The position numbers and the translations under genes were made by a program. From positions 1 through 52,955 of the forward strand of contig PNJC01000114.1 of the NCBI GenBank assembly GCA_002878215.1: 52,955 nucleotides of DNA. Direction: 5' to 3'. Below the pieces are notes generated by a model. It made no database searches. It was not told the DNA's origin and worked only from the letters and a program-made list of their open reading frames with translations. Positions 3,442-22,340 of the stretch are shown here, one piece after another. Positions within the stretch are counted from its first letter, which is position 1, and each line of letters opens with the position of its first letter. Origin of the DNA: Hydrogenobaculum sp. Lineage in GTDB: Bacteria > Aquificota > Aquificia > Aquificales > Aquificaceae.

Positions 3442-5325
3442 ATGAGTGTATTAGAGCGCGTAAACAGCTTATTGGATTTGAAAGAGTTATCAAAAGAAGA
3501 ATTGGAAGTCTTAGCTAAAGAGGTCAGAGACCTTATCATAGATGTAACATCTAAAAACGGTGGCCACGTGGCTCCCGGTCTTGGTACTGTGGAGCTCACC
3601 ATAGCACTTTTAAGGGTTTTTGATGTACCAAAGGATATTGTAGTTTGGGATATAGGGCATCAAGCTTACCCTTGGAAGATACTAACAGATAGAAAGAATG
3701 TATTCCATACGCTTAGAAAAAAAGATGGAATATCTGGATTTTTAAGAAGAGAAGAAAGTATATACGATGCCTTTGGAGCCGGGCATAGCTCTACTTCTAT
3801 ATCAGCGGCAGAAGGTTTTAGGGTGGCAAAAGACCTATTAAAAGATGACTCCTACGTAGTAGCTGTCATAGGAGACGGCGCTATGACTGCTGGCATGGTT
3901 TACGAAGCTTTAAACAACATAGGTCATCTTCACCACAACAGACTCATAATAATCTTAAACGACAACGAAATGTCCATATCAAAAAATATAGGTGCAATAT
4001 CCACATATCTAAACAAACTAATCACCGGCAAACACATACAAGATACAAGAAACAAAATAAAAAATATTTTAGATAAAGCAGGGTTTGTACCCAGAAGATT
4101 TGCAAAACTCACGGAAGAATTTGTGAAGGGTTTCGCCACACCTGGTATTTTGTTCGAAGAGCTTGGCCTAAATTACATAGGTATAATAGATGGTCACAAT
4201 GAAGATGCCCTTGAAACAACGTTAAAAAACGCAAAATCTATAGATGGACCTGTATTAATGCACATAGTCACAAAAAAAGGCAAAGGCTACGAACCAGCGG
4301 AAGAAAACCCTGTAAAATGGCATGGAGTGGCCCCTTACAAGAAGGAATCCGGTGAAGCTTCAAAAATGTCTGGTGGTAAATCTTGGACCCAATGCTTTTC
4401 AGAAGCGCTTCTTAAAATAGCAGAGCTTGATGAAAGAGTAGTAGCCATAACCCCTGCCATGAAAGAGGGTTCTGGTCTTATTGATTTTGCTAAAAAATAT
4501 CCAGACAGGTTTTTTGACGTTGGTATAGCAGAGCAACACGCCGCCACGTTTTCCGCTGGACTTGCTGCAGGTGGCCTAAAGCCAGTTTTGGCCTATTACT
4601 CTACTTTTATGCAAAGAGCCTACGACCAAATCATACACGATATAGCCCTTCAAAACCTAAACGTTGTTTTCGCAGTGGATAGAGCTGGTTTGGTAGGAGA
4701 AGATGGGCCTACACACCACGGGGTTTTTGACATATCGTTTTTAAATTGTATACCAAATGTTGTTATCTCATCTCCTAAAGACAACCTAGAGCTTCTAGAC
4801 CTTCTTTACACAGCCATAAATTCCAACAAACCTTTTGCAATAAGATATCCAAGAGGAGAAGCGGTTTTATCCAAAGAAGAAAGAGCACCAAAGCTCATAA
4901 AAATTGGCAAATGGGAAGTATTAAAACCTGGTACAGATATAGCTATACTTACAAATAGCTATCTCTTAAAAGAAGCTTTAGAGGCATCTTATGAACTTTT
5001 AGACCATGGCATAAATGCAGAGGTGATAAACGCAAGGTTTATAAAGCCTTTAGACAAAGATATGCTTTTTGATATAGCAAAAAGGTTTAACGTTGTTTTA
5101 AGCGTTGAAGACGGAGTTTTAAAAGGTGGTTTTGGGGCTTCTATTTTAGAGTTTTTTAACGACAACATGTTAGATGTACAACTTTATAGAATAGGTATTC
5201 CAGATAAATTTGTAGAGCATGCTTCTCAAAAAGAGTTGAGAGAGATGTTCAACCTTACAAAAGACGGTATTAAGAAGTTCGTATTAGAGCACATATTTTC
5301 CTCTGAAAAGCTAAAAAACTTTTAA
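3442..5325 (+). CDS. dxs: 1-deoxy-D-xylulose-5-phosphate synthase
   Basis: Full-length thiamin-dependent transketolase-type protein: GHQAYPWKILTDR, GAGHSSTSISAAEG, GDGAMTAGMVYEALNN, DRAGLVGEDGPTHHGVFD. Confidence 0.97.
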   Translation: MSVLERVNSLLDLKELSKEELEVLAKEVRDLIIDVTSKNGGHVAPGLGTVELTIALLRVFDVPKDIVVWDIGHQAYPWKILTDRKNVFHTLRKKDGISGFLRREESIYDAFGAGHSSTSISAAEGFRVAKDLLKDDSYVVAVIGDGAMTAGMVYEALNNIGHLHHNRLIIILNDNEMSISKNIGAISTYLNKLITGKHIQDTRNKIKNILDKAGFVPRRFAKLTEEFVKGFATPGILFEELGLNYIGIIDGHNEDALETTLKNAKSIDGPVLMHIVTKKGKGYEPAEENPVKWHGVAPYKKESGEASKMSGGKSWTQCFSEALLKIAELDERVVAITPAMKEGSGLIDFAKKYPDRFFDVGIAEQHAATFSAGLAAGGLKPVLAYYSTFMQRAYDQIIHDIALQNLNVVFAVDRAGLVGEDGPTHHGVFDISFLNCIPNVVISSPKDNLELLDLLYTAINSNKPFAIRYPRGEAVLSKEERAPKLIKIGKWEVLKPGTDIAILTNSYLLKEALEASYELLDHGINAEVINARFIKPLDKDMLFDIAKRFNVVLSVEDGVLKGGFGASILEFFNDNMLDVQLYRIGIPDKFVEHASQKELREMFNLTKDGIKKFVLEHIFSSEKLKNF

Positions 5326-5928
5326 CACTATAAACGACAGGTTGTCTTTTATGAGACGCTCTTTTGATAATATATGTTCTTTTATAGCTTTAGGGTCTTT
5401 TTCTACTATATCTTCCAATATATCTTTTATATCGCATATACCATCTGTGGATATTAAAAAAATGTCGTTTTTCTCAATGTTTCCTTGCTCTTTGTATAAC
5501 TCTATACTCCAATTTGTGCCGAGAGCTTTTACATATTTTTTATGGTTTTCTAGTTTGCTTTGGTCTTTAGTAAGCTGTATTAAGCTTTTATTACGAATAA
5601 GAAATATTTTTGAATCTCCTACATGATAAATATGATACATCATAGTGTTTAAATCACATTTTAATACGCTAAGCGTGGTACCACATATAAGCCCATCTGC
5701 ATATTTACTCAACCTGTTTATAATCTCCTTGTTTATTTTATCAAAAGCCTTTTCTATATCATAAAGATATCGCTCTAACACCTGTATAGCTATTTTTGAA
5801 GCAAGCTTTCCGGAGTTTTTATCTCCCATACCATCTGCCACTGCAAATACGCTATCTTGCACAAATATTTCATCGCTTTGATAATTCTTATCCCCAATTA
5901 TCTGTCCGCACTCGTAGACTATATTCAT
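5311..5928 (-). CDS. PP2C-family Ser/Thr protein phosphatase
   Basis: VFAVADGMGDKNSGKLAS, YHVGDSKIFLIR, LISTDGICD motifs; start taken at internal Met (MNIVYECGQ) that forms an ATGA overlap with the kinase stop; track ORF runs to 5997. Confidence 0.85.
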   Translation of the reverse strand: MNIVYECGQIIGDKNYQSDEIFVQDSVFAVADGMGDKNSGKLASKIAIQVLERYLYDIEKAFDKINKEIINRLSKYADGLICGTTLSVLKCDLNTMMYHIYHVGDSKIFLIRNKSLIQLTKDQSKLENHKKYVKALGTNWSIELYKEQGNIEKNDIFLISTDGICDIKDILEDIVEKDPKAIKEHILSKERLIKDNLSFIVLKVF

Positions 5929-6728
5929 AAAATCTCGTGAGTTTTTAGATATTCTCTTAGTTCTATAGCGTTTTGAAATCTTTTGTTGTAATCGCATTCT
6001 AAAAGCATTTTTATAAACTCTCTTGTTTTTTGAGGTATGTCTTCTGATATCTTGTAATCGCAGTTTTTGTTTCTTTTTAGCTTTGGGATGTCGCTTTCTA
6101 CATCAAAAGGGTCTTTTTTTGTAAGAATATAGTGAAGCAACGCTCCCATTGAGAATATATCGCTTGCTGGGTATATCTCGTTTCTAAATATCTCAGGCGC
6201 TATATAGCCTACAGTACCTTTTACAGATATAAGAGATTGGCCTTTTTTTGTTTTTAAAAGCCCAAAATCTCCCAACTTCCACACGAGCCCTTTTAGTATC
6301 TTTTTGCCAAACACGTTATCTGGTTTTATATCGCTGTGTATATAGCCCATTTGATGTAAAAAAGCAAGGCCGTTGGTTATATCCGCAAAAATCTTCAACA
6401 CAAGCTCTTTGCTGAGACTTTGGTGAGATATATATTCTTTTAAATTTCCAGTATCCATAAGCTCGTATATAACATACAATCTCTTTTCATCTTTTTTATA
6501 CAAATAGCTTATCAAAGATATGATGTTTGGGTGTCTTAAAAGTATCAAAGACTGAACTTCTTTCCAAAGGTATTCTATAGCATATTCATCTTTTGCTATT
6601 TTTAATGCAAACTCCTTCCACTTGTATTTACCTTTTAAACCCTCAACTTTGTATACCTTACCAAACTCACCTTCCCCAAGAATACCTACTATCCTATACA
6701 TATCTAAAACTATATCGCCTATCTCCAT
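5925..6728 (-). CDS. Ser/Thr protein kinase
   Basis: GEGEFGKVYKVE, HSDIKPDNVFG, LGDFGLLK, GTVGYIAPEIF kinase motifs. Confidence 0.92.
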   Translation of the reverse strand: MEIGDIVLDMYRIVGILGEGEFGKVYKVEGLKGKYKWKEFALKIAKDEYAIEYLWKEVQSLILLRHPNIISLISYLYKKDEKRLYVIYELMDTGNLKEYISHQSLSKELVLKIFADITNGLAFLHQMGYIHSDIKPDNVFGKKILKGLVWKLGDFGLLKTKKGQSLISVKGTVGYIAPEIFRNEIYPASDIFSMGALLHYILTKKDPFDVESDIPKLKRNKNCDYKISEDIPQKTREFIKMLLECDYNKRFQNAIELREYLKTHEIL

Positions 6729-7471
6729 CAGTAATACACCTTTTTTAAGTATAACCCATGCGCTTTTGCCGTGTGATTTGAAACTTTTTTGGCTTTTAAA
6801 AAATCGTTTACATCGTCTATGGATATAAGCCCTTGAGCGTAAGATAGCATCGTACCTATTATGCGTCTTACCATATACCTCAAAAATCTATTGGCAGTGA
6901 TCGATATTTCTACCAAGGGATAATCTATATTAAAAGTTATATTTTCTACGAAGCAATAGCTGTTTTCATCTTCAAGCTCTTTAGTAAACCCTCTAAAATC
7001 CTTATAACCTAAAAACAAGTAAGATATCTCCATCATCTTGCCTAAATCTGTAGGTTTATATACCAGCATAGCCCTATCTTGGAAAAACGGTGAGTTTTTT
7101 TCACCAAAAAATAATTTATATATATATGTTTTTTTAAAAGCGTCAAAACGTGAGTTAAACTCCAAAGGTACTTCTTCTATGCTGTGGACTTTTATATCCT
7201 TTGGTAGAGCACTGTTTAGGGCTTTTCTTAAAAAGTTTAAGTCTTTATCGTATTCCATCTTGACGTTGAATACAAACTCAATAGCATGAACACCTTTATC
7301 TGTTCTAGAACAACCTATAGCCCTTATTTTTTGTTTTATAGGTTTTTTCTTGTTTACTATGTAATATAGCTTTTCTTCTACTTCGTTTTGTATAGTGGGC
7401 ACGTTTGGTTGATATTGCCATCCGCTATAATTTGTACCCAAAAAGGATATTGTAAATTTGTAGTTCTTCAC
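6728..7471 (-). CDS. truA: tRNA pseudouridine(38-40) synthase
   Basis: FLGTNYSGWQYQPNVPTIQNEVE, GCSRTDKGVHA motifs. Confidence 0.95.
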   Translation of the reverse strand: MKNYKFTISFLGTNYSGWQYQPNVPTIQNEVEEKLYYIVNKKKPIKQKIRAIGCSRTDKGVHAIEFVFNVKMEYDKDLNFLRKALNSALPKDIKVHSIEEVPLEFNSRFDAFKKTYIYKLFFGEKNSPFFQDRAMLVYKPTDLGKMMEISYLFLGYKDFRGFTKELEDENSYCFVENITFNIDYPLVEISITANRFLRYMVRRIIGTMLSYAQGLISIDDVNDFLKAKKVSNHTAKAHGLYLKKVYY

Positions 7472-9147
7472 ACCGCCAACGTGTTCTTTAGATAAAGCTT
7501 TGTTATATATTCCATCACCATCCTATTTGTATTAAAATACGTCCCGCTTGTAGCTACAGCCATTTTCATGACGTTTACATATTTTCCAAAGCTGTTGTAG
7601 TAAGTAGGCAATATTACATATCTAAGCTTGTTGTAAAGGTCGTGTATCTCGTCCTTATCCCACTCTGGTTCTAAGGCTATATCTTCCCAAGATGTCCTTT
7701 TGCCTATAGACCAGCCGTTTACATTTTCCATGCAACCCTCTATCCACCATCCATCCAACACAGAGAAATGGGGAACGCCGTTTAAGGCTGCTTTCATTCC
7801 GCTTGTACCAGAAGCCTCCAAAGGTCTTTGCGGAGTGTTTAACCATATGTCTACACCAGATACAATAATTTTAGCCTTATACATGTCGTAATTTTCTATA
7901 AAAGCTATTTTTAGCTTGTTGGTTTTGGATTTTGCATAATCTTTTGCATCAAATATCTCTTTTATGATGGCTTTACCTTCCCCATCAAGCGGATGAGCCT
8001 TACCAGAAAATAATATTTGAATACCGTTAAAATCGTTGGCTATATCTATGAGCCAATCAATATCTTTCAATATCATGTGATTTCTTTTGTAGGCTGTTAT
8101 ACGCCTTGCTACCCCTATAGTAAACCAATCTCTAGAAAAGGAAGCATCCGTTTGAGAGTTTACCAAATCTATAAGGTCGTCTTTTGCCCTTTGATGGACT
8201 TGTACAAATATCTGGTCTGGCACATTTACTATCTGTCTTAGCAATGAAGGGTCTTCTTCCCAACCCCTTATAAATTCTGTGTAAAGCTTTTTATGGTGAG
8301 GTGATACCCACCTCATATGATGCACACCGTTTGTTACATACTCTAACTTATGCCCTTCAAAGATGCTTTCGGATACGTATTTGTGTTTTTTTGATACGGC
8401 AGCTACGGTTCTAGCTGCTTTTAAAGATACCCAAGATAGGTTAAACTCTTGATCGTGATCAAAAAGATCTTCCATGTTAGCATCTTTGATATAATCTTTT
8501 AAATACGTTTTTACATCTTCTATTGGAAACTTGTCAAAAGCGGCTGCCACAGGGGTATGAGTTACAAAAACTACCCTATCCCTCACCTTTTCTATATCTT
8601 GTAGATCTTTCAAAAGACCTACCGTGAGAAACGCTGAATGGCTTTCATTTATATGATATACCATTATCTTATAACCTAAAGCTTTTAAAAGCTCATAACC
8701 ACCTATACCAAATATAATCTCTTGAAGCATTCTGTCTTTCCCTTGGGCAAGATAAAGCCTGTCAAATATTTGCCTTATCTCTGGCTGGTTTTCTTTTAAG
8801 TTTGTATCTAAGAATAGCACAGGCACTATATGACCATTTATACCCATCATATCGTATTTCCAAGCCGTCACATATATATCTTGACCGTTAACAGGTATTT
8901 TGATTTTAACATCTAAGGGCTTCAAATATTTTGATGGGTCCCAAGTTTGCGGAAAATCTGTTTGAGCTCCATGAGCCGTAAGATGCTGAGATGTATAACC
9001 TTTTCTCCAAAGTATAGTAACGCCCACAGAGGGCACTTTTAAATCCGCAAGGCTTTGAAGCGTATCACCAGCCAACACTCCAAGCCCACCGCTATAAGTG
9101 GTTATATATGGCTCTATGCCACACTCCATTACAAAGTAAGCTATCAT
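7468..9147 (-). CDS. glgP: Alpha-glucan (glycogen) phosphorylase family
   Basis: YSGGLGVLAGDTLQSLADL; HINESHSAF; RRITAYKRN; PQRPLEASGTSGMKAALNG. Confidence 0.93.
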   Translation of the reverse strand: MIAYFVMECGIEPYITTYSGGLGVLAGDTLQSLADLKVPSVGVTILWRKGYTSQHLTAHGAQTDFPQTWDPSKYLKPLDVKIKIPVNGQDIYVTAWKYDMMGINGHIVPVLFLDTNLKENQPEIRQIFDRLYLAQGKDRMLQEIIFGIGGYELLKALGYKIMVYHINESHSAFLTVGLLKDLQDIEKVRDRVVFVTHTPVAAAFDKFPIEDVKTYLKDYIKDANMEDLFDHDQEFNLSWVSLKAARTVAAVSKKHKYVSESIFEGHKLEYVTNGVHHMRWVSPHHKKLYTEFIRGWEEDPSLLRQIVNVPDQIFVQVHQRAKDDLIDLVNSQTDASFSRDWFTIGVARRITAYKRNHMILKDIDWLIDIANDFNGIQILFSGKAHPLDGEGKAIIKEIFDAKDYAKSKTNKLKIAFIENYDMYKAKIIVSGVDIWLNTPQRPLEASGTSGMKAALNGVPHFSVLDGWWIEGCMENVNGWSIGKRTSWEDIALEPEWDKDEIHDLYNKLRYVILPTYYNSFGKYVNVMKMAVATSGTYFNTNRMVMEYITKLYLKNTLAV

Positions 9148-9152
9148 AACAA

Positions 9153-9938
9153 TTATTTTATCAGATTGTCAAACTCTTTGTACATTGTTTCTTTTGAGTT
9201 TGCAATACCAGTTTCTACTTTGCCGGTAGGGCCAACGAACGTAGGTGTTCCGTCTACTCCTAAACCTTGTAGATATGATATGTTTTTTCTCACTTTTTCT
9301 AGGCCTTTTTTACAAGGGTTTTTTGGTACCGGAGCACTGTACATAAATTCCAACATACTGTAGCTAGCGTTGTTATCGCATAAAAGCTCGGCAGATTTCT
9401 TAACAGAACCAGGATGCAAAGAACCTGTTGGTGTTTGCACAGGATATAAAATTACCTTTATCGCTATATGGTTTTTCTTTGCCCATTCTTTAAGAGGGTT
9501 TTCCGCTTCATGACAGAATGGACATTGTGGGTCTGTTATAAAATAGACAAAGTTTTTAGCGTTTTTACCGTTGTATACAAAATCAACATGATTTTCTAAC
9601 TCTTTTAGTTGATGTTGTGATAACTTTTCATACTTAGATAAATCTGGGGCTACCAAAGACTTACGCTTTATGTCTATAACCTGACCTTGTATTATATAGT
9701 TTCCGTTTTTGCTTATAAAAAAGTATTGAGCGTTTAACGGAGATACTTTAAACACCACTTCGCAAAAACCGTTAAGCCTTTTGGATGGATATACATCTTC
9801 TATTTTTATAGTAGGCGGTAGGTTAAAATTTTTCAATATGCTTTTAACCTCCGTTTTCGATGGACAAGAGTCCTTTGCGTAAGCACCACTTATCATCATA
9901 CCAAAAGCACCTATAGACAGCAACAACTTTTTATACAT
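9153..9938 (-). CDS. DsbC-like periplasmic thiol:disulfide interchange protein
   Basis: Signal peptide, N-terminal DsbC-like region, thioredoxin motif FITDPQCPFCHEAENPLKEW and cis-Pro GVDGTPTFVG. Confidence 0.85.
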   Translation of the reverse strand: MYKKLLLSIGAFGMMISGAYAKDSCPSKTEVKSILKNFNLPPTIKIEDVYPSKRLNGFCEVVFKVSPLNAQYFFISKNGNYIIQGQVIDIKRKSLVAPDLSKYEKLSQHQLKELENHVDFVYNGKNAKNFVYFITDPQCPFCHEAENPLKEWAKKNHIAIKVILYPVQTPTGSLHPGSVKKSAELLCDNNASYSMLEFMYSAPVPKNPCKKGLEKVRKNISYLQGLGVDGTPTFVGPTGKVETGIANSKETMYKEFDNLIK

Positions 9939-9964
9939 AAAAAACCTCCTAAATATTAAATGCC

Positions 9965-9970
9965 ATTATA
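9965..9970 (-). promoter_or_regulatory. Candidate -10 element for the dsbC-like gene
   Basis: Minus-strand TGTGGTATAATGG, followed by leader with TAGGAGG SD. Confidence 0.5.
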
Positions 9971-9976
9971 CCACAG

Positions 9977-10927
9977 CTAAATGAATAAATCATGAATAGT
10001 CTTCACCTTCTCCAGCACATCCTCTGGTTTCACAAAATCAAGGCATTGGTAGGTATTTGTTTTACAGCTTTTAGGATTTATAGAACAAGGATGACAATAA
10101 AGTTTAGGCTCTAAATAAAACCCGTCTGTAGGATAAAACCCATAAGAGGCTGAAGTAGCACAATATATTGAAATAGCTTTCACACCAAAGGCGTTTGCTA
10201 TATGAATAGCAGAAGAATCGTTTGCTATCACAAGAGAAGAAAGGCTCACAACGGCCAAAAACTCCTTTAAAGATGTTAGTCCAGATAAGTTTAAAACATT
10301 TTTAATATTGTCAAAAGCCTCTAAACGCCTGTCAGATAGTATAATTACAGGTTTGTCAAGAGATTTTGAAAGTGCTATGAAGTGCTCTAGTTTCCAAGTT
10401 TTTAAGAAAAAATTTGATATAGGAGATATTGCTATAAAAGAATGGGGTAAGCGGAACTTTTTTTTAACAACATCTTTTATTCCTTCTTCTAAATACAGCT
10501 TTGGGGGTTTTGGGTTTAGTTTTTTTGACGTTAAAAGCTCCAAAAGTTTTATATTTCTTTCTATCTCGTGAATACCCTTTTCTTTGTAAGGTATAAGGTC
10601 TGTATATAAAAATTTTCCCTCTGACCTATCAAAACCTATTCGCTTTTTAATGCCAGATAAATACAGCATTAAGGCGCTTCTAAAAGATACGTGCAAAGAC
10701 AAAACAGCATCGTAACCCTTTATGGCTTTTAGTATATTAAAAGAATCTTTTAACGACCTGTTGTAAGGGTGAAGCTCTATAGGATACCCATATAAAACAT
10801 CCTTTATAAAAGGTCTTCCTACAAAACCTACGTTGTACTCGCCAAAAATATCAACGGCATTTTGCAAAAGGGATGTAGCCAACACCACATCCCCTAAGTA
10901 AGCTGTTTGCCAGACAAGTACTTTCAA
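9977..10927 (-). CDS. ADP-heptose:LPS heptosyltransferase family (GT9)
   Basis: MKVLVWQTAYLGDVVLATSLL; NDSSAIHIANAFGVKAISIY. Confidence 0.88.
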   Translation of the reverse strand: MKVLVWQTAYLGDVVLATSLLQNAVDIFGEYNVGFVGRPFIKDVLYGYPIELHPYNRSLKDSFNILKAIKGYDAVLSLHVSFRSALMLYLSGIKKRIGFDRSEGKFLYTDLIPYKEKGIHEIERNIKLLELLTSKKLNPKPPKLYLEEGIKDVVKKKFRLPHSFIAISPISNFFLKTWKLEHFIALSKSLDKPVIILSDRRLEAFDNIKNVLNLSGLTSLKEFLAVVSLSSLVIANDSSAIHIANAFGVKAISIYCATSASYGFYPTDGFYLEPKLYCHPCSINPKSCKTNTYQCLDFVKPEDVLEKVKTIHDLFI

Positions 10928-10937
10928 TAAATAAACG

Positions 10938-11366
10938 TTAAAAACTTATGCTGGTTATCTTCCAAGAGTCATCCTCTTTTGATACAGTAAAGGTTATATC
11001 ACGTTCCATATGCTCGTTGTCTTTGGTTTCCAATACAACCTTTACCTCAGAATCTGAGATTTTTGACACATTTTTAATTTTCCAAGATTTTACGAAAGAC
11101 ATCTGACCCTCCAAAGAAGCTCCTAGAGCTTCGTACGGTTTCATCTCTACCAAAGCAAGCGGTAATTTTAATTGGTTTTCTAAACTTTCCCTTAAGCTTG
11201 GGTCAAGCTTTCTTATGGCTTTCATAGGATGATGGTCTTTTAGATTCGCCACAAAATCTGACACTAAATCTCTAGATATCCCTTGAGGTGAAGACCCGCA
11301 AGCTCTAAAAAGCAGAAACACAGCCCCTAAGGCTACTATTCCTATAACAATTTTCTTTTTTGACAT
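10938..11366 (-). CDS. Hypothetical membrane-anchored protein, DUF4878-like
   Basis: Short N-terminal hydrophobic anchor; small alpha/beta domain ending in DDSWKITSISF. Confidence 0.6.
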   Translation of the reverse strand: MSKKKIVIGIVALGAVFLLFRACGSSPQGISRDLVSDFVANLKDHHPMKAIRKLDPSLRESLENQLKLPLALVEMKPYEALGASLEGQMSFVKSWKIKNVSKISDSEVKVVLETKDNEHMERDITFTVSKEDDSWKITSISF

Positions 11367-11367
11367 G

Positions 11368-12765
11368 CTATGACCTCCTAAATTTATTAATAAGATAATC
11401 GTAAATATGCTTGGCCGCTTCTTTTCCCTCTTTTAAAGCTCTTACTACAGTATCACCGCCGTTTACCACATCCCCAGAAGCAAATATACCATCCACAGAA
11501 CACATATAATGTTGGTCTACTTCAAGAGTACCCCATTTTGTAGTTTTTAGGTTTAGTTCTTCAAAGGCTATAGGGTTTGGTTTTTGACCTATGGCTAAAA
11601 CCACCGCATCGCAGTCTATAACAAACTCTGAGTTTGGCACCTCAACTGGTCTAGGTCTTCCTGATTCGTCTGGTTCACCAAGTTCCATTTTTACACAAAG
11701 TAGGCCTTTTGCATAGCCGTTTTCATCTCCTATTATTTCTTTTGGCTGTGTAAGCCAATGTATTATAGCACCTTCTTCTTGAATATGGTCCCATTCTTCG
11801 TCTCTAGCCGAAGAAGTCTCTCTGGTTCTTCTATAAACTACATGGGTTTCCATGCCAAACCTTATGGCGCTTATAGCACAATCTACAGCTGTAAATCCAC
11901 CACCTATTATGGCTACTTTTTTTATATCGGCCATTGGACAACCTAAGGCTATATTCATGAGAAACTCTATCGCAGAATACACATTTATAAGGTTGTCTCC
12001 TTTTATACCTAGATTTCCTCTACCAGCACCTACGCCTATAAACACTGCATCGAAGCTTTCTTTTAGTTCTTTAAGCGATACACTTCTTCCTATTACTATG
12101 CCAGTGTGAAACTTTACGCCCATTTTTTTAAGCTTGTTTATTTCATATTCTAATATAGATTTATCAAGTCTTGCGTTTGGAATACCGTAAAACATAACAC
12201 CGCCAAGCTTAGGAAGCGCCTCGTAAACCTCAACATCTATACCTCTTCTAGCAAGTTCATAAGCACATCCTAGTGATGCCGGTCCTGAACCCACAATTGC
12301 AACTTTGTATCCTTTCTTATCTTCTACCTCTACTGAAGGTTCTATGCCAGATATCCTTACAAAATCCCCTACAAACTTTTCTAAAGCCCCTATATTAACA
12401 GGCAAACCTTTGTTCCTCTTGTTTCTTACCGTATCAAAGTACAATATACAAGCGCCTTCGCATTGCCTTTCTTGAGGACATACCCTTCCGCATATTGAGG
12501 GGAATATATCTGTTTGGGTGATTATCTTGTAAGCTTCCAATATGTTACCCTCTGCTATCTTTGATATAAAGCCTGGTATGTCTACATTTATAGGACAACC
12601 TTTCATACATCTTTTATCTGCATCTTTGCAAAGTATACAACGCTTTGCCTCATCTATGGCTAAATTTATCGTATAGCCAAGGGAGTACTCTTCAAAAGTT
12701 TTTGTACGCTTTTCCACTGGCATTAAAACTTCTTGATTTCTATCGTAATACCTAATTTTCTTCAT
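11368..12765 (-). CDS. GltD/NfnB/SudA-type FAD-NAD(P) oxidoreductase with two N-terminal 4Fe-4S motifs
   Basis: CILCKDADKRCMKGCP, CGRVCPQERQCEGAC, VAIVGSGPASLGCAYELARRG, AIIGGGFTAVDCA, FASGDVVNGGDTVV. Confidence 0.9.
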   Translation of the reverse strand: MKKIRYYDRNQEVLMPVEKRTKTFEEYSLGYTINLAIDEAKRCILCKDADKRCMKGCPINVDIPGFISKIAEGNILEAYKIITQTDIFPSICGRVCPQERQCEGACILYFDTVRNKRNKGLPVNIGALEKFVGDFVRISGIEPSVEVEDKKGYKVAIVGSGPASLGCAYELARRGIDVEVYEALPKLGGVMFYGIPNARLDKSILEYEINKLKKMGVKFHTGIVIGRSVSLKELKESFDAVFIGVGAGRGNLGIKGDNLINVYSAIEFLMNIALGCPMADIKKVAIIGGGFTAVDCAISAIRFGMETHVVYRRTRETSSARDEEWDHIQEEGAIIHWLTQPKEIIGDENGYAKGLLCVKMELGEPDESGRPRPVEVPNSEFVIDCDAVVLAIGQKPNPIAFEELNLKTTKWGTLEVDQHYMCSVDGIFASGDVVNGGDTVVRALKEGKEAAKHIYDYLINKFRRS

Positions 12766-12768
12766 GGC

Positions 12769-13536
12769 TTAGCTCTTCCTAGAACGCACCAACACTTCTT
12801 TTAAGATGAGGTGCCTTCTGTTTAAATCATCAAAATCTATCTTGTTGGCTTCAAGCCAAGGTCCTTCCACGCAAGGCAGTTTAAGCTTGCCATCGTACTG
12901 AATCCTGCAAGCCAAGCAAAGCCCTACAGTACAAAGCATCCTGGTTATAACTGCGCATAAAACATTTTTATCTTCATAAACACTAACTAACTCTTTAGCT
13001 AACTCATTAGAACCAGCACTTACAACAACATCGTATGGCTTATCAATCTTGCTAAAAGCTTCTACACTATCAAACTCATAAACACTATCAAATATACCTG
13101 TATAGCTTCTTAAATCCTCTAAATGCACAGCATCAGAATTTATGAAAGCAAGATCTATTTTGTTTTTTGGTTTTAGATGTTTTGCGACGTTGTATATGCC
13201 AGCAAAACCCCAATTTATACTTACAAAGAGTATATTTTTATATTCTAACTGGGGAAAAGGTTTTCCGGCTGGACCTTCAACGTAATGCAACTTTTGCCCT
13301 GGTTTTATATTTTCAAAAGCCTCAGTTACCACCATGTCATCAGACTTTTGCAACAAAAAAGAAACCGCATTACGTTCTATATCTGCATCCATGATAAAAA
13401 CGGGTATTCTTTCTGGCTTTTCTTGATATTGCATAATAAAAAATTGACCTGGTTTTGCTTTTGAAAGATACAAACTCTTTAGTGTTATTAGTTTCAGGCT
13501 TTTAGAAATATCTATAACCTCTAGTACTTCAGCCAT
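12769..13536 (-). CDS. Ferredoxin-NADP reductase-like subunit (NfnA/SudB/PyrK-type) with 2Fe-2S motif
   Basis: C-terminal MLCTVGLCLACRIQYDGKLKLPCVEGP (C-x4-C-x2-C-x11-C); 4-nt gap to the GltD-type subunit. Confidence 0.87.
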   Translation of the reverse strand: MAEVLEVIDISKSLKLITLKSLYLSKAKPGQFFIMQYQEKPERIPVFIMDADIERNAVSFLLQKSDDMVVTEAFENIKPGQKLHYVEGPAGKPFPQLEYKNILFVSINWGFAGIYNVAKHLKPKNKIDLAFINSDAVHLEDLRSYTGIFDSVYEFDSVEAFSKIDKPYDVVVSAGSNELAKELVSVYEDKNVLCAVITRMLCTVGLCLACRIQYDGKLKLPCVEGPWLEANKIDFDDLNRRHLILKEVLVRSRKS

Positions 13537-14527
13537 TCACAAAATCCCTAATATCAAATATCACAGTAGAGCAGCAGTTTGGGGATATGTGCGGTTTCAT
13601 ACCAAATTCTATACTTTGAGACACTATACCCTCTGCGGGAAAAGCTATACCGTTTGCTCCTGCCAACATAGCGTATGTATCAAAAGCCAAGCGATACTCT
13701 CCTGCTGGTCTTGCGCATCCTATTATTATAGGGTTTTTTGGCATTTTTTGCCTAGCGTAAAGTATCACCTCTGCAGCTTCTTCAGCGCTTGGAGGTTTTA
13801 TAAGTTGATATCTTGCGTTTCCGTAGTAAGGCATAACCACTACAAGCACTAAAGCATCTGGATCGTATTTTGATATCATATCTACCGCGTTAAACTCGCC
13901 TATAATTTTTCCATAATGTAAACCTATGATAATGTGAGGTACTATTTTAAGACCGTGCTCTTTCAATAGCCTCAAAGATTCGTCATAATCTTTAGTGCTT
14001 TTATGAGGAAGTTTATAAACTTTATGTATTGTTTCATCTTCGCCTATAATATCTAAAAGAACAGCATCCACTTCCGCTTCTTTTAACGTCTTAGCTAGTC
14101 TTTCATCCACAAGGCCCACATGACAGGTTACTATAAGTCCTAGCTCCTTTTTGGCATATATCATTGCATCTTTATAGTCGTAAAGCTCTACTACGTTATC
14201 TTTGTTTGAGCCTCCAGATATCAGTATACCTCCAACGCCCGCTTCTTTTAGATCTTCACAAACCCTTACAAGTTCTTCAGGAGAAGTGGCAGGTATCATA
14301 TGATGTAATATCTTAGAAGCGCAGTGATCACACATTAACTCGCACTTTTTACCAGTTATAGATATATCCACAAACCTTGGCTTTGAAACAGTTTTAAAAT
14401 CTTCTACTTCATAGTACTTAAAACCAGGTCCATAAAAATATATATTGCTTCCAAAATGTTCTTCTTTTGTTCTAAGACCTGTTTTCAGCTTTTCTAAAAA
14501 AGCTTCATTTATTTCTATATCTATCAT
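13529..14527 (-). CDS. Radical SAM protein, candidate LipS-type lipoate assembly enzyme
   Basis: Radical SAM CxxxCxxC (KKCELMCDHCASK) plus C-terminal GCARP and NCC cysteines; lies in the sHdr/LbpA operon; family is certain, LipS assignment is inference from context. Confidence 0.8.
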   Translation of the reverse strand: MIDIEINEAFLEKLKTGLRTKEEHFGSNIYFYGPGFKYYEVEDFKTVSKPRFVDISITGKKCELMCDHCASKILHHMIPATSPEELVRVCEDLKEAGVGGILISGGSNKDNVVELYDYKDAMIYAKKELGLIVTCHVGLVDERLAKTLKEAEVDAVLLDIIGEDETIHKVYKLPHKSTKDYDESLRLLKEHGLKIVPHIIIGLHYGKIIGEFNAVDMISKYDPDALVLVVVMPYYGNARYQLIKPPSAEEAAEVILYARQKMPKNPIIIGCARPAGEYRLAFDTYAMLAGANGIAFPAEGIVSQSIEFGMKPHISPNCCSTVIFDIRDFVNG

Positions 14528-14537
14528 AATGTTTACC

Positions 14538-14885
14538 TCAAAATGTTATCACTTCAGCACCTTGATCTATAAGTTCTAAAAGCTCTGGACCAATAGCCAA
14601 AACATTTATACCTTTTTCTTCGTTGTACTCTTTTTCTCCTAGCTTCGTAGAGTTGTTTATACAAGCCATTGTAGTAATACCTTTTTCTAAAAGCTTATAA
14701 AACAAATCTTTTAAATGAGGTATATCCTCTATTTGCCTTGGCACTTTAACTCCATCTGCCCAAAAGAAAAATCTAACATCAAACCTTGGGTCTTCGGAAG
14801 CCCTTAAAGCAAACCTCATACTCATCTCTACTTTCAATTCACTAATATTTACATCAGACATCAATACAATAGCTAGTTTCTTCAT
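14538..14885 (-). CDS. DsrE-family protein
   Basis: MKKLAIVLMSDVN...FALRASEDPRFDVRFFFWADGV...LLEKGITTMACINN. Confidence 0.75.
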   Translation of the reverse strand: MKKLAIVLMSDVNISELKVEMSMRFALRASEDPRFDVRFFFWADGVKVPRQIEDIPHLKDLFYKLLEKGITTMACINNSTKLGEKEYNEEKGINVLAIGPELLELIDQGAEVITF

Positions 14886-14922
14886 TTAAAACACCAAATA
14901 CAATTGATTTTTAAATTTAGTA

Positions 14923-14945
14923 GCCCTACTCCAAAAGAGTAGGGC
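14923..14945 (-). terminator. Intra-operonic hairpin (9-bp perfect stem)
   Basis: gccctactc-caaaa-gagtagggc between lbpA copy 2 and the next dsrE; no strong T-tract, so terminator or processing/stability element. Confidence 0.6.
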
Positions 14946-14955
14946 ATAGATTATA

Positions 14956-15402
14956 TTAACCGCAGGAGATACCTTTTTCTTTTGCTATAGCACCTAACTT
15001 TTCTACAGCTTCTGGGCCTTTAAGAAGCATTGACACTTCTGATGGATTGGTAGGTTTTATTTTTGCTATCCAACCTGCACCGTATGGATCGTCGTTAGCT
15101 AAGGCAGGGTTTGCTTTTACTGCGTCGTTTATCTCTACCACTTCGCCGCTCAATGGAGATGGCACTGGACCAACCCATTTTCCACTTTCTATAGTAGCTA
15201 CAGACTTTCTTCTTTCCACAGCTTTACCTGGTTTTTTAGGCGTATAGGCCACCAATCTACCAGCCATCGCTGCAGCTACGGAAGTGAGGCCCACCGTGAA
15301 AGTGCCATCACCGTTGTCTTTTGCCCATGTGAAGGCATTAGCCTCTGCGTCAACGTCGTAAAGTAAATCCTCTGGGATGTTGCACCCGTTTACTACTGCC
15401 AT
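14956..15402 (-). CDS. lbpA: Lipoate-binding protein, GcvH-like (LbpA), copy 2
   Basis: FTVGLTSVAAAMAGRLVAYTPKKPGKAVERRKSVATIESGKWVGPVPSPLSGEVVE with lipoylation-type Lys in ESGKW. Confidence 0.9.
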   Translation of the reverse strand: MAVVNGCNIPEDLLYDVDAEANAFTWAKDNGDGTFTVGLTSVAAAMAGRLVAYTPKKPGKAVERRKSVATIESGKWVGPVPSPLSGEVVEINDAVKANPALANDDPYGAGWIAKIKPTNPSEVSMLLKGPEAVEKLGAIAKEKGISCG

Positions 15403-15454
15403 ATATACCTCCTTAATAAATTATTTTCTAAATTAATTTTTAACTTTTAAAAGC

Positions 15455-15856
15455 CTAAAAAATTATTACCTTATCAGCTTCTAAGGATTTTTGAGCAAAT
15501 TCACCTGCTGGTACTACACCATCTAACAGTGGTATTAACTCCTCTTCTTTTAAACCAGACGAGTCTATAGCCTGCTTACAAGAATAAAGTTTAACACCAG
15601 CAGCTTTGGCATCTTTCATAAATTCATACACCGATTTTGGTTTTTGACCTGCTACGCAGGAATCTCCTCCGGGGTATATAGACTCTGGAACACCCTTTCG
15701 TATTAAATTTGTGCCATCCATATTAAAAAATATCTCTACTATTGCATCGTTTGAAGCCATTAAGGCTCCTATAAAAAACGGCGTAGCACATCTATGAGGT
15801 GTTTTTGGACCGCTTGTCATAAGTATTAACACTTTCTGACCTTCTGCTTCCATCAT
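15455..15856 (-). CDS. DsrE-family protein
   Basis: VLILMTSGPKTPHRCATPFFIGALMA...AAGVKLYSCKQAID; ATGA overlap with upstream thioredoxin-like gene. Confidence 0.82.
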   Translation of the reverse strand: MMEAEGQKVLILMTSGPKTPHRCATPFFIGALMASNDAIVEIFFNMDGTNLIRKGVPESIYPGGDSCVAGQKPKSVYEFMKDAKAAGVKLYSCKQAIDSSGLKEEELIPLLDGVVPAGEFAQKSLEADKVIIF

Positions 15857-16110
15857 GAGTTAAGCACCTTCCTTACCTCTTCTTCCGAGGGTACTCCTAC
15901 AAACGTTAGCTTGCCGTTTATTATGGTAGATGGGACACTTCTAACGATTAACTTTTTAGCCCAAGCCCTACCTTCTGGTTGAGCCACGTCAAGCACTTCG
16001 TACTTGAAACCAAGCTCAGCTTGTAACTTTTGATAAAGAGCATCTGCATCTGGACATGTAGCACACCACTGAGACACTAAAAGTATAACATGTTTATCAG
16101 AAGCCGCCAT
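15853..16110 (-). CDS. Small thioredoxin/glutaredoxin-fold protein
   Basis: VILLVSQWCATCPDADALYQKL (CxxC) and VRSVPSTIINGK cis-Pro; 85 aa. Confidence 0.82.
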   Translation of the reverse strand: MAASDKHVILLVSQWCATCPDADALYQKLQAELGFKYEVLDVAQPEGRAWAKKLIVRSVPSTIINGKLTFVGVPSEEEVRKVLNS

Positions 16111-16111
16111 A

Positions 16112-16588
16112 CTATGTACACCTCATACAAATGATATCCTCTCTATCTATATACTCTTTCATTTTTCTAATAGCTTCTTCACCAGTTACCAAATCTTTTA
16201 AATCTCTTTCTAAATTTACAGGCTTTAAAGTTACTATCCAACCTCTACCGTACGGATCATAATTTATTATATCCGCTTGCTCTAACAACTCTTCGTTTCT
16301 TCTTACTACTTCACCCTCTACGATACAAGGTATTGGACCTGCCCATTTACCGCTCTCCAACGATGCCACTGGTTTGCCTTTGGGTATTTTTTTACCAACA
16401 TCTTTTATGCGTATATGTAAAAGCTTACCAGACCTAGTTTGTCCAACATCTGTAAGACCGTATGTTACATTGCCATCTGGTTCTAACCTAATCCAAACTT
16501 GATTTTCTATATCGTAATACAAATCTTTTGGTATTAAACACCCGTTATGATCAACTATATTTTCGTCTACATTGCCATGTAAATCCAT
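16112..16588 (-). CDS. lbpA: Lipoate-binding protein, GcvH-like (LbpA), copy 1
   Basis: VTYGLTDVGQTRSGKLLHIRIKDVGKKIPKGKPVASLESGKWAGPIPCIVEGEVV. Confidence 0.9.
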   Translation of the reverse strand: MDLHGNVDENIVDHNGCLIPKDLYYDIENQVWIRLEPDGNVTYGLTDVGQTRSGKLLHIRIKDVGKKIPKGKPVASLESGKWAGPIPCIVEGEVVRRNEELLEQADIINYDPYGRGWIVTLKPVNLERDLKDLVTGEEAIRKMKEYIDREDIICMRCT

Positions 16589-16613
16589 ACCTATACACCT
16601 CTAGAGCTTAAAA

Positions 16614-16638
16614 TTGCCCCCAGGAAATATGGGGGCAA
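16614..16638 (-). terminator. Intra-operonic hairpin (8-bp perfect stem, followed by TTTT on the minus strand)
   Basis: ttgccccc-aggaaatat-gggggcaa, minus-strand RNA continues AATTTTAAG; between hdrB2 and lbpA copy 1. Confidence 0.65.
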
Positions 16639-16647
16639 CTTAGTATA

Positions 16648-17610
16648 TCATGCCAAACCGTATCTTTTCAACACCGGTAATGGATCAGATAGGTTGTCTT
16701 TTAGCTTTACTTCAGAGGCGCTTCTTCCCAATGCAAGACCTAACAGCTGAGTAAAATAGACAGCTGGCACATCAACATCTGGAACACCTTTTAACATTAA
16801 TCTATGTCTATACATTTCCAAAGAAGCATGACAAAGTGGGCATTCGGTAGCTATAACATCTGCACCATTTCTTTTAGCGTTTTGCAATATCATCATCACA
16901 AATTTTTCTGACACTGATTCATCCGACAATGAGTGAGGGCCGCCGCAACATTGAGTATGCATAGGTTCAAAATCTACGCTAGTAGCCCCTGCTGCTTCTA
17001 AAAGCTTGTTTTGGAAAAATGGATGTTCATCATCATCAGCTGTAGCCCTTCTCATTGGTCTATCTTTATCTAAGTCCTGACCGCCAGCATGCGAGTATGT
17101 CCTAGCATAAAAGTGCGGTCTTGTGTATAGACAGCCGTAATAGTTTGCCACCTTTAAACCTTTTAAAGGTTTCTTGGTTTTCTCTTTTATTTTTTCTGGA
17201 CCAGCTTCTTCATAAAGCCATTCCAAAGCATGGTAGGTCTCAGGTATTACATCCAAAGGATCCACACCACCTTCTCTTAAAAGGGCATTTGTTTTAGTAA
17301 GCACAGAATTATCGGTAGTTAGAAAGTACCATGCCCTTTGTAGTGAAAAAGAACAACCGTTGCAAGGAGCCACTATTACTTCATACCCTTGTTTTCTAGC
17401 CAAAGACATGTTTCTAGCATTCATTAAAATAGTACCCCAGAACGTTACATTCTTTGATTCCATTGCTCCACAACAGTTGTAATCTTTTAAATAATCAAGC
17501 TCTAAGCCCAAATCTTTAGCTACTAGTCTCAAAGATACGTCGTAAGCTCTAGCCGCACCTTCTAATGAGCAACCTGGGTAGTAAGCTACATTTTTACCTA
17601 TAACACCCAT
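16648..17610 (-). CDS. hdrB2: sHdrB2, heterodisulfide reductase B-like, two CCG domains
   Basis: YYPGCSLEG...NCCGAMESK...CNGC and YYGCLYT...QCCGGPHSLSD...CPLCH. Confidence 0.92.
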   Translation of the reverse strand: MGVIGKNVAYYPGCSLEGAARAYDVSLRLVAKDLGLELDYLKDYNCCGAMESKNVTFWGTILMNARNMSLARKQGYEVIVAPCNGCSFSLQRAWYFLTTDNSVLTKTNALLREGGVDPLDVIPETYHALEWLYEEAGPEKIKEKTKKPLKGLKVANYYGCLYTRPHFYARTYSHAGGQDLDKDRPMRRATADDDEHPFFQNKLLEAAGATSVDFEPMHTQCCGGPHSLSDESVSEKFVMMILQNAKRNGADVIATECPLCHASLEMYRHRLMLKGVPDVDVPAVYFTQLLGLALGRSASEVKLKDNLSDPLPVLKRYGLA

Positions 17611-17622
17611 GTAAAACCTCCT

Positions 17623-18384
17623 TTAATGAGTCATTATGCCTTCTTCTCTTATAACTCTTTCAAGAACTTGTTTGAATCTATTCCAGTTTTGAGTTCTTGG
17701 ATGTATCAACATATGTTTAGCATTTAATATCAAGAAGTCTATGTTCATGCCCTTTAACGGTTTAATAGCTAAACTCTTTAACCAATCTGGTAAACCACCT
17801 GCAAAAGGTATTGGTTTCTTGAGGATTGGATCTTTCATTACAGAATACCCTTGCTTTTCCATCCAACCGAATAGCAATTCTCCATCTTCTATGCGTCCAT
17901 ACTCTATAACGCTTTCTGTGAAGAATTTATCAAATTTCTTAGATGGGTACTCTTCTATAAGACCTCTTTTTGACATTTGATTTACTATTACCTTTAATAC
18001 TTCCTCTACCAAAACACCTTTTGGACATCTGTGAGTACATTTGTGGCAAGACACACATCTCCATATGACATCTGCTCTTTTCTGCAACTCATCTAGCATA
18101 CCTAATCTAGCTAGATATATGAAATGTCTTGGGTTGTATTTTTCATCCCAATAGTTATGAACAGGACAGCTAGCCGTACAGTATGCACATTGATAGCACT
18201 GATTTATAGTTTTCCCTTGGGGGTGGTTGATGATATCTTTGGCAAAGTTTAAATCGTAATCATTTATTACACGAGGAAGTATTATAAGGTTCCAATCTCC
18301 AGATGCATCAACACCGTCTATAACTATCCTATCTTTCTTTATTATACGTTCTTGCTCTACAAGGCCACGTTCATGAATAGCCAT
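17623..18384 (-). CDS. hdrC2: sHdrC2, heterodisulfide reductase C-like 4Fe-4S protein
   Basis: CYQCAYCTASCPVHN and CVSCHKCTHRCPKG. Confidence 0.92.
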   Translation of the reverse strand: MAIHERGLVEQERIIKKDRIVIDGVDASGDWNLIILPRVINDYDLNFAKDIINHPQGKTINQCYQCAYCTASCPVHNYWDEKYNPRHFIYLARLGMLDELQKRADVIWRCVSCHKCTHRCPKGVLVEEVLKVIVNQMSKRGLIEEYPSKKFDKFFTESVIEYGRIEDGELLFGWMEKQGYSVMKDPILKKPIPFAGGLPDWLKSLAIKPLKGMNIDFLILNAKHMLIHPRTQNWNRFKQVLERVIREEGIMTH

Positions 18385-18396
18385 AACAACCTCCTA

Positions 18397-19170
18397 TTAA
18401 TAGGTAAAAGTTACTTCATCGTCTCTTAAAACACCCAACAGACGTTTAGCAATAAAATCCGCGGGTGGGAAAAAACCTTTAGCACTATGCATCGTAGACA
18501 AGGTCATGTAATCAACGTAAGTACCGTAAATCATAGCTAAGAAGATATCTACAAACAAAAATCCCCTAACTCTTATACCGAACTCCAAAAGCTTTTCGTA
18601 AACCTGAACGTAGGTTTGATAAAATTCTTCGTAAGTAGAACCATACATCTCTCTGCCATGTCCATTTACCGGAGCTTCTTCTTTTAAGAACACAATAGCT
18701 CCACTTTCAGATTCTGGGTCCCATATCCAAGAGGTAAAAAGTATATAATCTTCTGGAAATGTAAAATGCAATATCTCTGCCGCGATATCCCTAGCGTTTT
18801 TCTTACTTACACCTCTTATTACATCCGTAAAAGCGTTAACCCTTTGCTCCCAGGTATCCGCTTTAGAATATAAAAGATCGCTTATAGCTTTTTTGAGGTT
18901 GTTAACACCAGTTTCTTCAACTATCTTGTTTCTGAACCTTCTAGCTGGGTACATTCTGTAAAATACATCAAGCAATTTATCCTTGTCTATAGATGCTAAT
19001 CGCTCCTTCGAGAATGTCTCTCTAAAAAGATTCGATTTCTCAAGAACCCTAGAATAGAACTCTTGCGCTAACTCTTCTCCATCTCCTAATATTTTTATTA
19101 GATAATCTCTTACTAAAAAGTCATCAAGAGGGGCCGCTTTGAACCCCTCGTTTGGTTTAATGTTGCTCAT
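18397..19170 (-). CDS. Conserved hypothetical protein of sHdr clusters (Hyp)
   Basis: Soluble 257-aa protein located between hdrA and hdrC2, matching the conserved sHdr gene order; 1-nt overlap with hdrA. Confidence 0.85.
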   Translation of the reverse strand: MSNIKPNEGFKAAPLDDFLVRDYLIKILGDGEELAQEFYSRVLEKSNLFRETFSKERLASIDKDKLLDVFYRMYPARRFRNKIVEETGVNNLKKAISDLLYSKADTWEQRVNAFTDVIRGVSKKNARDIAAEILHFTFPEDYILFTSWIWDPESESGAIVFLKEEAPVNGHGREMYGSTYEEFYQTYVQVYEKLLEFGIRVRGFLFVDIFLAMIYGTYVDYMTLSTMHSAKGFFPPADFIAKRLLGVLRDDEVTFTY

Positions 19171-20228
19171 TACACACTCACCTTAGCTCCTATAAAAGCT
19201 ATTGCCTCTGCAGCGGCTGCTTCACCCTCAGACATAGAAGACTCTATATCTATAGGACCTTTGCAAGCGCCTGCTATGAATATACCTTCTTTGTTGGATA
19301 TGATATTTGAACCTGAATTGTCAGAAGGTATTAGGAATTTACTATCTTGATCTTGGTTCAAACCTAGCATCTTAGCAACTTTCTTTGTGCCTTCAGATGG
19401 TTCCATTCCAAGCACCAAAACCACTAAGTCCATTGGTACTTCTGATGGTCTTTGTACTATGGTATCTTCGTGCTTTATCACAAGTCTACCATCTGATGGT
19501 CTGAAGGTTATTTCAGCAATTCTTCCTCTTACGTATCTAACACCGGCTTTTTCTTGAGGAGCCCAATAGAATGGGTATTCCCAAGTACCGTATGTTCTAA
19601 CGTCCATATAATAGCAAAATACATCTACATCTGGATAATGCTCTCTTATCTCCGTGCCTTGTAAACCAGAAAGAGCACATCCATATCTACAGCAGTGTAC
19701 ATTTGATACGCCTAATTGTCTATCTCTTGAACCAACACAGAATACAAACGCTACACGCTTTGGAAGTTGGCCGTTGGATGGTCTATAGAGCTTGCCTTGA
19801 CGAGAAAACATTTGCTCTAACTCGAGGTTTGTTATTACGTCTGGGAAAAGCCCATAACCTAGCTCACCTTTTCTTCTTGGATTAAAGTGTTGGAAGCCAG
19901 TAGCTACTACTATAGCTCCAACCTCTACAGTTTCACCGTTTGATAGCTTTACTTTGTAATTACCAGGCGTACCTTCGCAAGCTTCTACTTCTGTGCCTAA
20001 CTTGACTTTAACGTTTGGGTTCTTAGTTACTTCATCGATAACTGGGCCTAAAACTTGTGATGGTTTTAACTTTCTTGGGATAAGGGTATGGTAATCTTCC
20101 AATACTGGTCTACCACCTAGTTTTTGTTCCTTTTCCACTAAGATGGTAGATATCCCTAATTTACCAAGAGTTTTAGCTGCGGATACACCAGCAGGCCCGC
20201 CACCTATTACTAACACGTTCTTAGACAT
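19170..20228 (-). CDS. hdrA: sHdrA, FAD-containing heterodisulfide reductase A-like
   Basis: NVLVIGGGPAGVSAAKTLGKLG; FCVGSRDRQLGVSNVHCCRYGCALSGLQ; C-terminal GIFIAGACKGPIDI. Confidence 0.94.
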   Translation of the reverse strand: MSKNVLVIGGGPAGVSAAKTLGKLGISTILVEKEQKLGGRPVLEDYHTLIPRKLKPSQVLGPVIDEVTKNPNVKVKLGTEVEACEGTPGNYKVKLSNGETVEVGAIVVATGFQHFNPRRKGELGYGLFPDVITNLELEQMFSRQGKLYRPSNGQLPKRVAFVFCVGSRDRQLGVSNVHCCRYGCALSGLQGTEIREHYPDVDVFCYYMDVRTYGTWEYPFYWAPQEKAGVRYVRGRIAEITFRPSDGRLVIKHEDTIVQRPSEVPMDLVVLVLGMEPSEGTKKVAKMLGLNQDQDSKFLIPSDNSGSNIISNKEGIFIAGACKGPIDIESSMSEGEAAAAEAIAFIGAKVSV

Positions 20229-20248
20229 ATATAACCTCCTAAGGTTTA

Positions 20249-21565: not shown

Positions 21566-21617
21566 AAAACTAACCTCCTAAAAAATTTTTTTGGCACTAC
21601 GCCAAAAATTGCATAAA

Positions 21618-22340
21618 TCACTCTTCTTGCATATCTTCCCAACGCTCTTCGTTTTCTTCTACCATATCCATAATAACATTGTAGAGGTTGGGGTCTATCT
21701 TCTCAAGCATGTCAAATATACCTGTTTCTCTCCAAATACTGTAAAGTTCTATGGCAGTTTGAAGAGATACTTCCCAAGCTGTTTTTACGGCTTTACCTAC
21801 GTCAAACGGGATAGCCATACGCTTTGCTCTCAGGTTTTCCATATTGTCAGCCATCTTTGGACCCCAGTCTGGGAAGAAGTCCGGCTGAAGCATATCCGCT
21901 GAGAGCTGGTTACCAGTGGTCATAACCTTCAAGAGCACGCGACCGTACGGTTTGAGAAGATCTTTGGTTGCATCAAAAGCGTTTCTAACAGCTACTTCTC
22001 TCATTATAGCCACTAAACCGCCTGGGTTGTTTACAAATGGGCATCTTATCCAGCATGTGAAACACTGAGAGCAAGCCCATATATATTCGTGCATCATGTC
22101 GTAAAGCACTTCCACATCATCTTCCAAAAATCTTTGGACTATCTCTCTGGGCGAATAATCAAAGAATCTATTTGATGGGCATGATGCAGTACACACACCG
22201 CAGTTTAAACACCCAAATATGTATTCGTGATAGCGAAAGTCAGATTTGACTTCCTCTACAATTCTAACCTTCTCTTCCCATGGCACATCTTTAGTCTTCT
22301 GTGATATGGGAAGATTGTATCCATAAGCGTGTCCATCCAT
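21618..22340 (-). CDS. hdrC1: sHdrC1, heterodisulfide reductase C-like 4Fe-4S protein
   Basis: CLNCGVCTASCPSNRF and CSQCFTCWIRCPF. Confidence 0.92.
   Translation of the reverse strand: MDGHAYGYNLPISQKTKDVPWEEKVRIVEEVKSDFRYHEYIFGCLNCGVCTASCPSNRFFDYSPREIVQRFLEDDVEVLYDMMHEYIWACSQCFTCWIRCPFVNNPGGLVAIMREVAVRNAFDATKDLLKPYGRVLLKVMTTGNQLSADMLQPDFFPDWGPKMADNMENLRAKRMAIPFDVGKAVKTAWEVSLQTAIELYSIWRETGIFDMLEKIDPNLYNVIMDMVEENEERWEDMQEE

Follow-up and report, generated by a model that had tools for sequence, protein, structure and literature searches.

Gene order at the locus

The window, i.e. the whole stretch of DNA that was analysed (52,955 bp), comes from a 1.5-Mb genome of Hydrogenobaculum (Aquificota), a hot-spring bacterium. 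Its minus strand includes a same-strand run that leads from an shdr-LbpA cluster through lipS1 to genes for a small and a large subunit related to those of Nfn enzymes, and on to genes for a DUF4878 protein and a GT9 glycosyltransferase. In the direction of transcription, the features are:

14538–22782, minus strand: shdr-LbpA cluster, upstream of lipS1 and the subunit pair
13529–14527, minus strand: lipS1, radical SAM gene for a lipoyl synthase subunit (NF053742, 234 bits; cut-off 230)
12769–13536, minus strand: small subunit, NfnS/Xfn-like, 255 aa
11368–12765, minus strand: large subunit, NfnL-like, 465 aa, with predicted two [4Fe-4S] clusters and FAD and NADP(H) Rossmann folds
10938–11366, minus strand: DUF4878 protein, downstream neighbour of the large subunit, kept in most Aquificaceae genera
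9977–10927, minus strand: GT9 glycosyltransferase, conserved next gene in the order NfnL-DUF4878-GT9

The shdr-LbpA cluster encodes two LbpA, DsrE-like proteins, a Trx-like protein, HdrB, HdrC, a hypothetical protein, HdrA, HdrB2 and HdrC2, and LipS1 is one subunit of the LipS1/LipS2 lipoyl synthase. Both subunit ORFs (465 aa and 255 aa, minus strand) were confirmed. The start of the small-subunit gene overlaps the end of lipS1 by exactly 8 nt (13529–13536), as the first-pass annotation had it, whereas the spacing between the two subunit genes, given there as 4 nt, is 3 nt (12766–12768). A promoter and terminator scan returned sites no more numerous than in shuffled sequence.

In Hydrogenobaculum, an extra DsrE-like gene (14538–14885) is located between lbpA and lipS1; it was not found at that position in the shdr clusters of other Aquificaceae genera. 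A second contig of the same assembly (G000:C94, L073) is identical to positions 4793–24767 of the window (about 19.9 kb), save two short deletions (16581–16607 and 16850–16897) around lbpA2 and hdrB, and probably represents assembly redundancy or a strain variant rather than a genuine second cluster. At 5311–6728, the genes for a PP2C-like phosphatase and a serine/threonine kinase overlap by ~70 nt as called, and the translations, read by eye, indicate that the phosphatase probably starts further downstream.

The large subunit

Two 4Fe-4S motifs and two dinucleotide-binding folds had been described in the large subunit, and both pairs are present. The protein matches the Pfam families Fer4_20 (125 bits) and Pyr_redox_2 (142 bits) as well as TIGR01316 (634 bits; cut-off 472). 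Scores of 399 and 397 bits were obtained against NfnL of P. furiosus and T. maritima, respectively, and 277 bits against Azospirillum GltD, and the similarity to NfnL 5jca_L (E 2e-118) is far above chance. The following sites were assigned:

12592–12642, minus strand: Fe-S ligands RCILCKDADKRCMKGCP, aligned to 5jca_L/4ylf_B
12448–12498, minus strand: Fe-S ligands SICGRVCPQERQCEGAC, by alignment
12373–12390, minus strand: GALEKF, with Glu at the position of P. furiosus NfnL E126, proximal [4Fe-4S] ligand by alignment
12160–12177, minus strand: NARLDK, with Arg aligned to P. furiosus R201
11821–11904, minus strand: NADP(H) site GGGFTAVD ... YRRTR, by alignment

We take R201 of P. furiosus to be the conserved Arg at N5 of the bifurcating FAD. 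The N5 arginine matters in Nfn (PMC6405883), and E126 of P. furiosus NfnL is a ligand of the proximal [4Fe-4S] cluster (PMC9503767). None of the Fe-S cysteines has been lost, and the proximal-cluster Glu, the FAD motif and the arginines of the NADP(H) site (YRRTR) are likewise retained.

In a tree with few references (two NfnI chains and one GltD chain), the Aquificota large subunits group together (100/99) in a clade that excludes 5jca_L, 4ylf_B and the Desulfurobacteriaceae. The nearest relatives of the large subunit are not GltD, as judged from the scores and this tree with its single GltD chain, and it lies outside the NfnI clade. The Aquificota clade has the signatures GGGFTAVDC and TSSAR, which are residues near the NADP(H) site that differ from those of NfnI. 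Given the separate clade and these substitutions, the reaction of the Aquificota large subunit may be different from that of NfnI.

The small subunit

A scan of genome contigs with the small subunit gave no match and was replaced by searches of whole genomes; the Hydrogenobaculum genome itself was searched by family and by protein. Genus labels g1–g30 are those of this analysis. The motif positions in the small subunit are:

13396–13413, minus strand: ERIPVF in place of the flavin motif ERxPxT, with Thr replaced by Phe at the flavin-N5 position
13333–13350, minus strand: QKSDDM in place of the FAD loop GxST, loop lost
13201–13221, minus strand: SINWGFA in place of the NAD motif GGGxG, motif lost and INWGF found instead
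12859–12933, minus strand: [2Fe-2S] motif C-x4-C-x2-C-x11-C, first ligand Cys where NfnI has Asp

The role of GxST as the FAD loop is our reading from the FNR family. Among the changed sites, ERxPxT, the NAD-site GGG and the Asp ligand of the cluster are published NfnA motifs (PMC6405883). The 2Fe-2S motif reported earlier was recovered as CTVGLCLACRIQYDGKLKLPC (residues 202–222): CTVGLCLACRx10CV replaces DGTGMCGxCRx10CV, such that the cluster motif is kept with Asp exchanged for Cys, and the [2Fe-2S] cluster would apparently be ligated by four Cys. In Pfam, the sole match is the DHODB Fe-S domain, the FAD- and NAD-binding domains being unmatched. Similarity to NfnS 5jca_S (E 3e-21) is far above chance, and the best Foldseek matches to the AlphaFold model (pLDDT 93) are 5vj7_B (Xfn) and 5jca_S (NfnI).

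The NAD motif is gone in all Aquificales examined and retained in 6/6 Desulfurobacteriaceae examined. Pfam NAD_binding_1 matches both Desulfurobacteriaceae NfnS tested and none of the Aquificales small subunits; hence, as judged from these sequences, loss of the NAD motif is an order-wide feature of Aquificales, and the FAD contacts have been lost in a narrower set. The first-pass annotation had envisaged coupling to NAD+ as in NfnAB and SudAB, the latter an older name for an NfnAB-type enzyme. This does not agree with the lost NAD motif and the unmatched Pfam domain and, since the NAD site of the small subunit appears to be lost, NAD+ is very unlikely to be its partner.

The dN/dS ratio is 0.09–0.12 for the small subunit, which is thus under purifying selection but changes faster than the large subunit (0.02–0.04). 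As both values are low, both subunits are maintained. The cluster cysteines are retained in every Aquificaceae small subunit aligned. The FAD loop is lost in Hydrogenobaculum and g10, the two genera in which the pair is linked to shdr (see below). The small-subunit tree groups these genera, both on very long branches that were flagged by the tree program. Loss of the FAD loop was considered as a marker of shdr linkage; as the loop is likewise altered or deleted in G049 and G006, where the small subunit is unlinked, it is suggestive only.

Two further variants were seen. The NfnS homologues of genus g14 (L062:9752-10609, L063, L064) have lost all cluster cysteines (IMIDPIGLAGSDRV) and are still encoded beside a large subunit. 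NfnS of genus g10 (L066:9828-10511, L065, L137), the gene for which lies directly behind lbpA, is shortened to 227 aa, and the FAD loop and its helix are missing in the AlphaFold model.

Identification of the small subunit as PyrK was rejected: a separate second PF10418 (PyrK-like) gene is present in three Hydrogenobaculum relatives. G060 and G029 show a third PF10418 match, which is a different FNR-type subunit and not NfnS, and in the incomplete Hydrogenobaculum genome NfnS is the only PF10418 match. In a genome that is probably Hydrogenobacter thermophilus (L260:5054-5902), a LipA-like lipoyl synthase gene adjoins another FNR-type subunit (seen by eye); this genome also carries LipS1/LipS2.

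Distribution in Aquificota and linkage to shdr genes

The large subunit was found in 28 of 30 Aquificota genera, and sHdr, within this phylum, only in Aquificaceae. In genus g3, no large subunit was found at E 1e-60 in 17 genomes (one a single contig), 13 of which include HdrB2 (sHdr) and nearly all LipS1. As many of the genomes are drafts, absence from a single genome carries little weight; that from g3 rests on 17. The subunit genes are apart in g4, g6, g8 and g9, and in g2 the small-subunit gene was found with no large-subunit gene next to it. Relatives in the Hydrogenothermaceae mostly have a large subunit without a small one, and solo copies of the large subunit occur in Hydrogenothermaceae and Desulfurobacteriaceae. 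The most stable neighbours of the large subunit are DUF4878 and GT9 (g1, g4, g5, g6, g8, g9 and g11), not shdr, and the order NfnL-DUF4878-GT9 is kept without shdr in all of these except g1.

Of the 80 shdr loci taken from public genomes (29 Aquificaceae and 51 other), at least two carry the pair, those of Hydrogenobaculum and genus g10 (L156), both Aquificaceae; this count is a lower bound, as several shdr loci are cut by contig ends. It was found in none of the 51 loci from outside Aquificota. The position of the pair in the shdr-lipS1 run is real, and the linkage to shdr extends to a second genus, g10, where the pair directly follows lbpA and LipS1 is absent. A single clade of Hydrogenobaculum and g10 is rejected by rpoB (AU p 0.0017), and hence the linkage either arose twice or is old and was repeatedly lost. 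The concatenated Hdr proteins do not tell a single origin of the linkage in these genera from a double one (AU p 0.107).

In the complete genome G001, probably Aquifex aeolicus, HdrB2 (L109:2031-3374) is broken by several stop codons, and the adjoining shdr genes appear intact.

Comparison with known systems

The first-pass assignment to an Nfn-type heterodimer is borne out by sequence, fold and cofactor ligands. With NfnI (NfnAB/NfnSL) of T. maritima and P. furiosus, the pair has in common the two subunits, the small-large gene order, the large-subunit ligands and the fold. However, the small subunit is without the GGG NAD motif, the Thr of ERxPxT, the GxST loop and the Asp cluster ligand, and the large subunit falls in a separate clade. 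NfnII/Xfn of P. furiosus (5VJ7) is the best fold match and likewise has an altered NAD domain, but identity in the fold alignment is ~21% and Xfn retains the Asp-ligated cluster sequence VDGTGMC. NAD-independent ferredoxin:NADP+ activity with an unknown high-potential acceptor is reported for P. furiosus NfnII/Xfn (PMC6405883, PMC6085437), which by analogy would provide a precedent for an NAD-blind Nfn here.

Nfn of the Desulfurobacteriaceae (same class) likewise has adjacent NfnS-NfnL genes, but the canonical NAD, FAD and Asp-ligand motifs and a separate large-subunit clade. GltD, the NADPH subunit of glutamate synthase, has the same domain plan as the large subunit but a lower score (277 bits) and, unlike it, no NfnS partner. 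PyrK, the electron-transfer subunit of dihydroorotate dehydrogenase, shares the Fe-S domain PF10418 with the small subunit. LipT is, like the pair, a proposed electron supplier beside lipS1, but is an unrelated flavoprotein.

Possible role of the subunit pair

Given the observed gene order, motif losses, distribution, predicted fold and purifying selection, we infer the cofactor occupancy, reaction, direction and partner of the pair as follows. The two proteins would form an Nfn/Xfn-type NADPH-ferredoxin oxidoreductase of an Aquificota-specific clade with a second partner other than NAD, a reading to which we assign a probability of roughly 0.57. In the large subunit, electrons would be exchanged between NADP(H), bound at the FAD, and ferredoxin by way of the two [4Fe-4S] clusters. 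The small subunit, which has lost the NAD site and, in Hydrogenobaculum, also the recognised FAD contacts, would keep its [2Fe-2S] cluster and would either hand single electrons to some protein or merely tune the large subunit. Retention of the cluster in a gene under selection suggests that the small subunit has a partner, possibly a protein, and sHdr or LbpA could be that partner in the two shdr-linked genera. The position behind shdr-lipS1 would be a local arrangement atop an older NfnS-NfnL-DUF4878-GT9 block. As most relatives keep the pair elsewhere and some sulfur-oxidising relatives are without it, it is probably a general NADPH/ferredoxin enzyme and not a dedicated part of sulfur oxidation. 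Linkage to shdr in two unrelated genera runs counter to a purely housekeeping role, which does not predict it.

The first-pass annotation had proposed the pair as an electron outlet for sHdr. As a general proposal this is not supported: one genus with sHdr does not have the pair, most other Aquificaceae with sHdr have it unlinked to shdr, Aquificota that have no sHdr carry it as well, and it is linked in 0/51 shdr loci from outside Aquificota. A Hydrogenobaculum-specific link via the [2Fe-2S] small subunit is possible. In such an outlet, the small subunit would dock on sHdr or LbpA and the large subunit would reduce NADP+ or ferredoxin with electrons from sulfane-sulfur oxidation. We regard this as unlikely. 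It would account for the pair lying inside the shdr run in Hydrogenobaculum and g10, for a linkage that, by rpoB, either has two origins or survived in these genera and was lost in others, and for the lost FAD loops and very long small-subunit branches of both genera; moreover, type I sHdr clusters, to which the one here belongs, have no assigned outlet (type II clusters carry etfAB) (PMC11582611). However, the pair is missing from the g3 sulfur oxidisers, which have sHdr, in most Aquificaceae with sHdr it lies elsewhere (the two subunit genes being apart in five genera), the FAD-loop loss recurs in unlinked small subunits, and the published LbpA model already includes dihydrolipoamide dehydrogenase and NAD+ (PMC6067878). 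A more specific version, in which the small subunit of Hydrogenobaculum and g10 is a flavin-free, NAD-blind [2Fe-2S] adaptor that connects sHdr-LbpA with the large subunit's bifurcating flavin, is a long shot; if true, it ties sulfane-sulfur oxidation directly to the reduction of NADP+ and ferredoxin for the reductive TCA cycle.

Also quite unlikely is a small subunit that survives as a structural relic in decay, beside a large subunit that acts alone as NADPH:ferredoxin oxidoreductase. The stepwise loss of the NAD site, the FAD loop and, in g14, all cluster Cys is what decay would produce, and many relatives have the large subunit only, but the small-subunit dN/dS is about 0.1, its cluster cysteines are intact in all aligned Aquificaceae proteins and its gene persists even in genera in which the large-subunit gene lies elsewhere. 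The 8-nt overlap with lipS1 would suit a donor of electrons to LipS1/LipS2, with low-potential ferredoxin in place of LipT, given that LipS1/S2 need reducing power and LipT occurs in only about half of LipS1/S2 bacteria (PMC10332631). This role is improbable: replacement of LipT by the pair is weakened by the presence in the same genome of a LipT relative (C91, 35% identity, 167 bits), which is found across LipS1-bearing Aquificaceae, and of LipS2 (C121), g10 has the pair without LipS1, and g3 has LipS1 without the pair. Equally hard to credit is the function after which TIGR01316 is named, the NADPH-oxidising small subunit of glutamate synthase. The 634-bit match, a large-chain domain of that enzyme in the same genome (C81) and the solo large-subunit copies in Hydrogenothermaceae and Desulfurobacteriaceae speak for it. 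However, NfnL outscores Azospirillum GltD by >100 bits, and an Nfn-type small-subunit gene directly precedes the large subunit, with no linkage to gltB.

Implications

To our knowledge, the source of reduced ferredoxin for the reductive TCA cycle in microaerophilic Aquificales is not settled. As an Nfn-type enzyme that is conserved through Aquificales and has an altered high-potential branch, the pair is a concrete candidate for this supply; as the electron outlet of type I sHdr it is a weaker candidate. A 2019 review names one aerobe with Nfn and does not mention Aquificota (PMC6405883). The natural Asp-to-Cys and NAD-site variants would allow tests of the coupling between the two branches of Nfn.
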